Positions 5,962 to 9,759 of a stretch of DNA of 64,000 nt are shown one piece after another. The notes under the pieces were generated by a model. It was not told the DNA's origin. It was given only the letters and a program-made list of their open reading frames with translations, and searched no databases. Numbering within the stretch: the stretch's first letter is position 1; every line of letters starts with the position of its first letter. Location of the stretch: positions 1-64,000 of the forward strand of contig NCRC01000007.1 of assembly GCA_002894685.1 (NCBI GenBank), given 5' to 3'. A program made the translations under genes and the position numbers. The stretch is from Salinivenus lutea. Its GTDB lineage: Bacteria > Bacteroidota > Rhodothermia > Rhodothermales > Salinibacteraceae.

Positions 5962-6028
5962 CTTAAAACAACCCCGCTACAGGGAGCACTTCGCGTACTT
6001 CTGAAGCAGGGGGAGACCATTGATACTA

Positions 6029-7298
6029 GTGGTCAGTCAACCATCAATGGAGGGATAGAGCCGTCGGAGTTTGATTCGAGCATCCTCGGTTGTGAACCGC
6101 CAGTTGACTGGCTTCCTGGTCCGGTTACGTGGGGTTTGCCAGGCCTTCGCCTCCTGAGCCAAGCGCGCCAGACTTTCGATCCGCCGGTTCAGGCATTGCA
6201 GTTCGAAGACCGAGATCTCGATTTCGGCCATGTTTAGCCACGAGCCGTGCTTCGGCGTGAAGACCAGATCGATCCGGCGGGCGATTCGCCGGGCCTCCTC
6301 CGGAGCGAGCGCCTCGTAGAGCACCGCCTTCGTGTGGATGTTCAGGTTGTCGCAGACGACCTGGATGCGCTCTGCGCTGGGATAGTGACGGTCGGCAAGC
6401 TCCGCAAGAATCCGGGCAAAGTCCTGCTTGGTGCGCCGCTCGGTGACCTCCAAGTGACGACCTCCACGTGACGGAAGCCTCTGAGCGGTTCGTAGATCAT
6501 AAACAGATTCCATATACGGATTCGCCGTGCCTTCCCGCCGGTACTCGTAGTCGGTGCGCTGGCAGACGCCCGGCTTCGCGGAGAGGGGCGTCCGGACGTG
6601 ACTGTGAAGCGAGACCGGCTTTTCGTCGAGACAGACGAGAGGTCGGCAGTGATCGTAGGGCTGCTGATACCGATCCAGCACCGCCGCCTCCATCTGGCAG
6701 ACGAACGCGGCACTTTCGAGCGGGGGGATCGCCCATTGCTTACGCAGATGCGGCTTGATCTCGTTTTTTTGAGCGTTTGTCGAACCGTCTCGTGGCTGAT
6801 GGAGTCAACGACTCCCAGTTCAACGAGCCTGTCGGCCAGAAGCCGAAGCGTCCACCGGCTCCGTCCCTCTGGAGCCTCCAAGCAGGCCAGGGCGATGAGA
6901 CGGGCCTCTCCTTCTCCGTCGAGGCGGCGCCGGTACACCCGGTCGGGCACCGAGCGCTCCAGCGCCGCCTCCAAGTCCTGTTGGCAAAAGCGCTGGCGGA
7001 CCCGCTGGACCGTGACCGTCGAGCAGTCGACGGCTTCCGCCACCTCCGCGTCGGTCACTGGCTCATGCGGAGCGGAGTCACCAGTGTCGGCCTTTAGCAG
7101 AATGCGGGCGCGCATCAGCTTGCGGGCCGGATACCGACCGCGATTCAGAAGATCGGCCAGTCGGGTCCGCCCCTCGGCTGTCAACCGCAGGTGGTAGATC
7201 TTAGCGGGCATTGGAGGTCACCGATTGGGAGAGACAAAAACAAGATCGGCTTCGACTCTCCTCGCTGACCATGGATCCCATCATGCTGGACAAAGCAC
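6029..7298 (-). mobile_element. IS630-family insertion sequence
   Basis: The element is about 1270 bp, flanked by TA at 6027-6028 and 7299-7300, the usual IS630 target duplication. The ends begin GTGGTCAGTCAACCAT and, on the other strand, GTGCTTTGTCCAGCAT; 16 of the first 23 positions match, which supports terminal inverted repeats. One transposase is encoded in two overlapping frames. The element lies inside a CTAG that is the left target duplication of an older IS5-type remnant, so it arrived later. Confidence 0.8.
6037..7211 (-). CDS. IS630-family transposase, expressed through a -1 frameshift
   Basis: The first frame (7211 down to the A7 run) carries an N-terminal helix-turn-helix region (TDAEVAEAVDCSTVTVQRV). 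The second frame, to the TGA at 6037, carries the DDE catalytic domain: Asp in LVCLDEKPVS, Asp in VVCDNLNIH and Glu in SWLNMAEIE. The frames join at seven A (T7 on the + strand, 6764-6770), where reading CTC AAA AAA and slipping back one base gives AAC GAG and an uninterrupted IS630 sequence. Programmed -1 frameshifting is known in this family, so the element may still be active; a decay mutation is the alternative. The stop codon lies inside the terminal repeat. Confidence 0.8.
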
Positions 7299-7877
7299 TA
7301 GGCAGTGTCTGAAAAGTGGAGTTTTCGGAAGCAACGCCGAATGAAGCCAGTTTGAGCATGGCCGAGGAGCAGCGTGCATACTTGTCGTAGCGAGTTGCCA
7401 GCCGACGACACTCCATCACCCATCCGATCAGCCGTTTCAGTTGCAGGGTGTGATGGCGCTCCGGCGGCAGCGCGACGAGCTCGGATGGTGGTCGAGTCCG
7501 ACCATCCCGCCCGGAAAGTTCTGCGACCCATAGTCAATCAGGCCCTGCTCGTCGCGTTCAACGTGGAACGCCCCTAAATGCAATCAAAGAGCCCCCGGGC
7601 GTCCCACTGTCAAAATCGGGGAGACTGTTTTCCAGGGTCCGTAGCGCCCGGGCAAATCGTGCCAGGCCGCTCCCAAACAGGGAATCCAGAGAATTCCATT
7701 CAAGGCGACTCGATTGCGAGGGCGAGGGCGCCCCATCGTCTGCTCAGGAAAAGATCCGAGGCCCGCGCCCACTGATCGTCGGGCAGTTCGTAGCCGGGCA
7801 TGGCGTCCTCTGAAGGGTTAGAGGGACGGCTTGCTCTGCCAAAATTCGACACGATGGACGCTTCAGACAGAATCTAG
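7298..7877 (-). mobile_element. Decayed IS5-family (IS427-like) element with CTAG target duplications
   Basis: CTAG occurs at 7298-7301 and 7874-7877. Four bases inside each copy lie TGTCTGAA (7306-7313) and its complement TTCAGACA (7862-7869), so the inverted repeats are in register. The remnant is about 580 bp, shorter than a full IS5-type element of roughly 800 bp. The left CTAG has been split by the neighbouring IS630 insertion. Confidence 0.75.
7302..7801 (-). pseudogene. IS5-family transposase remnant
   Basis: Read on the minus strand, an N-terminal fragment begins near 7801 (MPGYELPDDQWARASDLF), then shifts frame into NGILWIPCLGAAWHDLPGRY followed by GPWKTV, the recognisable N-terminal signature of IS427-group IS5 transposases. 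A C-terminal piece (KRLIGWVMECRRLATRYDKY) lies near 7440-7360 and corresponds to the end of the same family. The central DDE region is largely missing and frames are broken, so no functional transposase can be made. Confidence 0.7.
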
Positions 7878-9271
7878 TCCGCTGAGGCCAGTGCCTCCAC
7901 GGCATCGGGCGCCTTGGGGATGCTCGGCCCAAGTACGCGGGCGCCGTTCTCCGTGACGAGGACGTCGTCCTCAATCCGCACGCCGCCGAGCCCCACGAAA
8001 GTCTCCACCGTGTCGTAGTCGATGAAGCGGGCGTGCCGTTGGTCGGCCCTCCACTGGTCGATCAGGGCGGGGATGAAGTAGCAGCCGGGCTCGACGGTGA
8101 CGACAAAGCCGGGGGCCAGCGGGCGGGCGAGGCGCAGGGCGTGCAGGCCAAACTGATCGCTTCGGGTCTGGTCTGGCGCGTAGCCCACGAGGTCCTCTCC
8201 GAGGTTCTCCATGTCGTGCGCATCGAGGCCGAGCATGTGCCCGAGGCCGTGGGGCAGAAAAAGCGCGTGGGCGCCGGCCTCCACCGCGGCCGACGCCTCG
8301 CCTTTCATGAGGCCGATGTCGATGAGGTGCTCGGTCAGGACCGTGCAGGCGTGGAGGTGAAGGTCGCGGAACGTGCGACCGGCCTCAATCGCGTCGATGG
8401 CCGACACCTGGGCGTCCAGGACGGCCTCGTACACGGCCCGCTGCCGAGAGGAGAAGTGGCCCCCCACCGGTGCCACACGCGTAATGTCGCCGGCGTAATG
8501 GTGGGGAGATGTGGCCCCGGCGTCCACGAGCAGCAGGTCGCCCGTGTCCAGCGTATTGTCGTATTCGTGGTTGTGGAGCACCTCGCCGTGCACCGAGCAG
8601 GTGGGGCGAAACGACAGCCCGGCGCCGTGGGCGTCGGCCAGGCCAGCCAGCGTCCCGGCCAGTTCTCGTTCGGTGGTGCCCGGGCGTGCGTGCCGGAGGG
8701 CGTACCGATGCATGCGCGCCGTCGTCTCTACGGCGTCCTCCAACTGATCGATCTCGACGGATTCTTTTTGTGACCGATGCGCGATAATGGTTCGGCACAG
8801 GGAAGAAGAGGCACGATCCGCCACCTGGGCGGGGGCCAGATCCAGATGGTCGGCCAGCCGCAGCTTGTGGCCCGGACGATAGGGCGGCAAAAAGTGAACG
8901 GGACGCCCGGACGCCCGGGCGTCCGCGAGGTCCGCGGCCAGGGAGGAGCGGTCCGCGGTCGTCGAAATGCCCGCGGCGTCGGCGTAGTCGTCCCGGGTGG
9001 GATGCTCGCCCCTCCAGATCACATCGTCGAGGGACGGGTCGGCGCCATACAGGCAGGTGGATCCCGTCTCGAGGTCGAGCAGGGCGGCGAATCCGGGGGC
9101 ATCGACCCCAATATAGTACAGAAACGTGCTGTCTTGACGGAAGGGGTACGGGTTGTCCGCGTAGTTCATGGCGCTCAGCTCATTGCCGAGCAAGAGCACC
9201 AACCCGCGGGCCGGCTCGTCTGCTTCGAAGAGGCGACGGCGCCGGTCGGCGTACGTAGACGGGGTAAACAT
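7874..9271 (-). CDS. pepP: Xaa-Pro aminopeptidase (M24B family)
   Basis: This 465-residue metallopeptidase removes N-terminal residues preceding proline. It has an N-terminal creatinase-like domain (about 1-150) and a C-terminal pita-bread domain with the five metal ligands: Asp in LLVDAGAT, Asp in HYAGDITRV, His in HGLGHMLGLD, Glu in VTVEPGCYF and Glu in GVRIEDDV. The start is placed at MFTPSTYADRRRRLF because upstream in-frame codons give Arg/Pro-rich text. The TAG stop is part of the CTAG target duplication of the adjacent insertion sequence; the C-terminus after ALASAD could therefore have been altered, but the catalytic domain is complete. It is presumably cytoplasmic. Confidence 0.92.
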   Translation of the reverse strand: MFTPSTYADRRRRLFEADEPARGLVLLLGNELSAMNYADNPYPFRQDSTFLYYIGVDAPGFAALLDLETGSTCLYGADPSLDDVIWRGEHPTRDDYADAAGISTTADRSSLAADLADARASGRPVHFLPPYRPGHKLRLADHLDLAPAQVADRASSSLCRTIIAHRSQKESVEIDQLEDAVETTARMHRYALRHARPGTTERELAGTLAGLADAHGAGLSFRPTCSVHGEVLHNHEYDNTLDTGDLLLVDAGATSPHHYAGDITRVAPVGGHFSSRQRAVYEAVLDAQVSAIDAIEAGRTFRDLHLHACTVLTEHLIDIGLMKGEASAAVEAGAHALFLPHGLGHMLGLDAHDMENLGEDLVGYAPDQTRSDQFGLHALRLARPLAPGFVVTVEPGCYFIPALIDQWRADQRHARFIDYDTVETFVGLGGVRIEDDVLVTENGARVLGPSIPKAPDAVEALASAD

Positions 9272-9360
9272 CGTTGTGAGTTGGGGATGAGACGGGGGCG
9301 GAGGGGCACGAGCGTCGACCGAGCCATCCGTCCGAAGACGAGAACAAGTGCGCCGAGGGC

Positions 9361-9759
9361 TTACTCCGACGATGCGGACCGTTCGGTCAGAACCTGGAGG
9401 AGGGATCGGGCCTCGGACAGGTGGTGGATTTCGCGGAGGGTCTGGTGGGCGGCATACACGGCATACAGCGTCACCAAGCCCACGGGCGTCACCCACAGAA
9501 GCACCTCCTGCCACGAGTCGCCCCCGACGAGCCACGTCCCCACGAGCACGCCGAAGTAAATGCCTGCGACGAGCATCGAGACCAGAGAATAGTGTGCGGT
9601 CGACAACCGATCGTCTACCGATTCCGCCACCTGCCGGTACTCTTTATTCTCCAGGGCGTCCAGGTCCACGACGCTCGCCAGGTGGGTTCGCAGGTCGGTG
9701 CTGCCGTGGGGGGACAGCCGATCGTGGACGAGGGTGTGGAGTCTGTTGGGGGACGACAT
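9361..9759 (-). CDS. Small membrane protein of unknown function
   Basis: The product has 132 residues. Residues 1-55 are soluble and charged. Two hydrophobic segments follow (about 57-78, YSLVSMLVAGIYFGVLVGTW, and about 84-106, around LLWVTPVGLVTLYAVYAA), and then a short helical tail. This is a two-helix inner-membrane protein with both ends probably cytoplasmic. It lies 89 bases upstream of the aminopeptidase on the same strand and may share its transcript. I do not recognise the family. Confidence 0.65.
   Translation of the reverse strand: MSSPNRLHTLVHDRLSPHGSTDLRTHLASVVDLDALENKEYRQVAESVDDRLSTAHYSLVSMLVAGIYFGVLVGTWLVGGDSWQEVLLWVTPVGLVTLYAVYAAHQTLREIHHLSEARSLLQVLTERSASSE

Follow-up and report, generated by a model that had tools for sequence, protein, structure and literature searches.

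Two insertion sequences stand edge to edge in the window, the stretch of 64,000 nucleotides of Salinivenus lutea DNA analysed here, directly beside the end of an aminopeptidase gene (7874-9535, minus strand). They were assigned to the IS630 family and to the DUF4096 type of the IS5 family, and the locus comprises the following features:

6026..6029, no strand: left junction CTAG, composed of C from the flank, TA of the putative target duplication and G, the first base of the IS630 element
6029..7298, minus strand: IS630-family element, 1270 bp, with GTG...CAC tips and imperfect inverted repeats
6037..6693, minus strand: second frame of the IS630 transposase, with the DDE_3 domain; an out-of-frame patch ends at the 14-bp duplication 6445-6472
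6342..7211, minus strand: first frame of the IS630 transposase, with the helix-turn-helix part; the frame departs at an A7 run at about 6764-6770
7298..7301, no strand: middle CTAG, composed of the C tip of IS630, the putative TA duplication and G, the left edge of the IS5-type element; common to both elements
7302..7873, minus strand: IS5-family (DUF4096) remnant, 572 bp, with both ends preserved, a gap of about 336 bp in the middle of the transposase, and frameshifts
7874..7877, no strand: right CTAG of the IS5-type remnant, in which TAG is the stop codon of the aminopeptidase gene

The IS630-family element is delimited by the imperfect inverted repeats GTGGTCAGTCAACCATCAATGG and GTGCTTTGTCCAGCATGATGGG, which start with GTG and are each preceded by TA, and is present as one copy in the draft genome of the host. 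Its transposase matches the Pfam profiles HTH_32 (3.4e-15) and DDE_3 (1.2e-19) and the NCBIfam IS630 profile NF033545 (9.1e-32). The two frames of the transposase meet at the run of seven A residues at 6764-6770 (minus strand). A single long transposase frame was absent in 52 of the 55 bounded IS630 relatives described below, and runs of A7-A9 occur in nearly all of them (loci L030-L107), a pattern suggestive of programmed slippage or frameshifting conserved throughout the subgroup, a mechanism known from the IS630 family (PMC5009743). Since the 14-bp tandem duplication and an indel at about 6505-6525 put approximately 22 transposase residues out of frame, the window copy is probably inactive. 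The IS630 element of Shigella sonnei, a member of the same Tc1/mariner-like family, shares with it the DDE_3 transposase, insertion at CTAG and, presumably, the TA duplication, as judged from the published description (PMC6811581) and not from a direct comparison, and differs from the window copy, in which the transposase is frame-split and carries probable inactivating indels.

The IS5-type remnant matches the DUF4096 profile (1.1e-11) and the NCBIfam IS5 profile NF033580 (6.4e-11), the latter with a score under the cut-off for the full protein, owing to the disruption of the gene. The octamer TGTCTGAA is found in inverted orientation at the two ends of the remnant, exactly 4 bases inside each CTAG, and these are its only two occurrences in the whole 64 kb. 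Compared with a 908-bp relative from Azotobacter, the remnant keeps the N-terminal part of the transposase (about residues 21-93 and the motif DST.IRA) and the C-terminal part, while the approximately 336 bp between them is absent and the frames are broken as well. A complete DDE catalytic core is lacking, and the stretch is best regarded as the relic of an IS5-family member rather than a working element. It has DUF4096, TGTCTGAAAAGT-type ends and CTAG flanks in common with the DUF4096 type of the IS5 family (relatives annotated as ISPst8 family or IS5), from which it differs in being a 572-bp remnant deprived of most of the catalytic core.

The word CTAG occurs at 6026-6029, 7298-7301 and 7874-7877, and is scarce in the window as a whole (26 occurrences observed versus 93 expected from shuffles). 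The TA dinucleotides at 6027-6028 and 7299-7300 represent, together with the inverted repeats, both boundaries of the IS630 element, and both junctions read as a full CTAG because the terminal bases of the element itself are G and C. The earlier note had described an IS630 and an IS5-type element with these ends, abutting via one common CTAG, with CTA before and TAG after the former; this description is borne out by the profile matches, the inverted repeats, the CTAG positions and the TA-flanked ends, and the anatomy of a nested pair of ordinary insertion sequences is confirmed.

When 84,980 species genomes were scanned with the IS630 transposase, 80 loci were obtained, in which the ends of the elements were set by TA and the inverted repeats only, with a bonus for GT tips. 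A C before the left TA and a G after the right TA were found in 51 of 55 well-bounded relatives, which belong to many phyla of both bacteria and archaea and have unrelated flanks. The same C-TA-G flanks, again in unrelated surroundings, were present in all 10 bounded copies of the same order, including six copies of identical length at six sites, three in each of two complete genomes. The relatives located in C-TA-G are mostly without an IS5-type element alongside. By analogy with the family, the C and G would be part of the target and not of the IS630 tip. The window element appears to have followed a CTAG rule that is general to its subgroup and corresponds to a documented preference: insertion of IS630 is specific for 5'-CTAG-3' (PMC6811581), a preference for CTAG is also documented by Tenzen and Ohtsubo (1991), and in ISY100, a relative of IS630, the TA was shown to be outside the element (PMC2170065). 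At three loci (L046, L094 and L041) the DNA just outside IS630 resembles, by eye, a second IS630 end, as would result if IS630 inserted into a CTAG of its own making.

Among the IS5/DUF4096 copies of a related type bounded in the genus (n=13), all are flanked by YTAR, namely CTAG in 11 cases, CTAA in one and TTAG in one, and the Azotobacter relative of the window subtype, located on a plasmid and with ends GGTTTGTCTGAAAAGT, has CTAG directly outside both ends. The target of IS5 is reported to be Py-T-A-Pu, with CTAG, an under-represented word, as the commonest form (PMC5493358).

We consider it highly probable (roughly 0.9) that a single CTAG at the end of the aminopeptidase gene received, one after the other, two mutually unrelated DDE insertion sequences that both target CTAG. 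Judging from their families, the IS630 element would duplicate the TA inside CTAG, and the IS5-type element would duplicate CTAG, or the TA within it. With G as the first and C as the last base of IS630, and with CTAG copied by the IS5 duplication, either insertion would leave a fresh CTAG at both of its own edges, where the second element could insert flush against the first one. IS630 would thus be at the IS5 edge because CTAG is there, and the meeting of the edges would be a by-product of a target preference common to both elements in a genome poor in CTAG, with neither element recognising its neighbour.

Insertion sequences that do target the ends of other elements include IS4321/IS5075, which insert in Tn21-type inverted repeats. 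The window IS630 element likewise came to rest against a different element, but for IS4321/IS5075 the end sequence itself is the target, whereas in the window the target would be CTAG alone. Recognition of IS5 ends by IS630 as favoured insertion sites, over and above the word CTAG, is very improbable, even though a second abutment in the congeneric genome G006 speaks in its favour. There, an 86%-identical IS630 remnant (C4:3255670-3255943) meets an IS5-type element at its N-terminal-side end, again via CTAG, with the junction sequence GATTGACCACTAGGCACTGTTTGATAAG; as opposite ends of both elements meet in the window, the two abutments are independent events. On the other hand, a search of the genus with an IS5-end pattern gave 15 intact IS5 left edges, of which a single one, that in the window, carries an IS630. 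No IS5 end adjoins the remaining bounded IS630 copies of the order. In 31 genomes with IS630 relatives, none of the matches from a DUF4096 search could be assigned a position next to a sampled IS630 copy, a result that is clear for the complete genomes and uncertain for the drafts, in which contig numbers limit the comparison. The proposal that IS630 was choosing the edge of another element is consequently not supported, given the general targeting of CTAG by its subgroup (51/55 and 10/10) and the single occupied edge among 15, and there is no sign of a strong IS5-edge hot spot for IS630.

The two related IS630 copies at IS5 edges may be due to chance, since few CTAG sites other than the edges of insertion sequences are harmless; with so small a sample a modest preference is conceivable, and the G006 abutment could hint at something beyond chance. 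It is an unlikely but conceivable extension that CTAG-sharing IS630 and IS5-type elements serve as mutual landing pads, with edge clusters growing beyond the share of CTAG sites. A literature search for IS630 nesting in IS5 edges returned nothing specific. In G006, from C4:3256150 onward (L117), another insertion sequence, possibly of the mutator/IS256 type, appears by eye to interrupt the IS5-type element by the IS630 remnant.

A clear order of events had also been proposed for the window. Both possible histories were rebuilt by script and compared with positions 5991-7900 (1910 bases). In the first, the IS5-type element is flanked by CTAG on each side and IS630 inserts into the left TA; in the second, IS630 lies between flank-C-TA and TA-G-flank and the IS5-type element inserts into the CTAG at its right edge. 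The two histories both reproduce the window letter for letter, and are hence identical to each other, because the G start and C end of IS630 leave a complete CTAG at each edge. The order of arrival is thus not readable from the sequence, and a clear order of events is not supported.

That the IS5-type element inserted first and decayed, and that IS630 later split its left CTAG, as the earlier note had it, is nevertheless somewhat probable, with the remnant lacking part of its catalytic core and carrying frameshifts while IS630 is full length. This heavier decay favours the order weakly: the opposite order yields the same final sequence, one deletion is no clock, a deleted IS5 element with both ends could have moved in trans, and IS630 is itself damaged by the out-of-frame patch and the duplication. 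An initial insertion of IS630 at CTAG, after which the IS5-type element entered the CTAG newly formed on the right side of IS630, is a more doubtful history; it rebuilds the window exactly and agrees with the G...C tips, through which almost every IS630 relative is bordered by CTAG on either side, but the IS5 remnant appears more decayed than IS630.

The aminopeptidase gene ends with the TAG inside the right CTAG, and a 96%-identical gene in G003 also ends with TAG; therefore, the IS5 duplication left the stop codon in place. In the closest relative (96% identical over the aminopeptidase gene) neither element is present and the DNA on the other side is unrelated. No empty site of the window locus was found in 13 congeneric genomes, the nearest relative differing in synteny, and no strain with one of the two elements alone at the locus was found. 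The left flank of IS630 has no homologue across the genus with which the left CTAG copy could be compared. Empty sites were also sought for two intact copies of IS630 from the same order, both in G078, with no relative spanning the junction.

The window pair is an ordinary illustration of a known target preference, both CTAG preferences having been published already. It shows how elements can come to lie side by side without special recognition when two known preferences coincide on one rare word, and it warns that the insertion order is unreadable from such junctions, because either element restores the target site of its partner. In G008, locus L118 contains, at about 568-812, a short IS630 derivative of approximately 250 bp, both ends of which resemble one IS630 end in a MITE-like arrangement.
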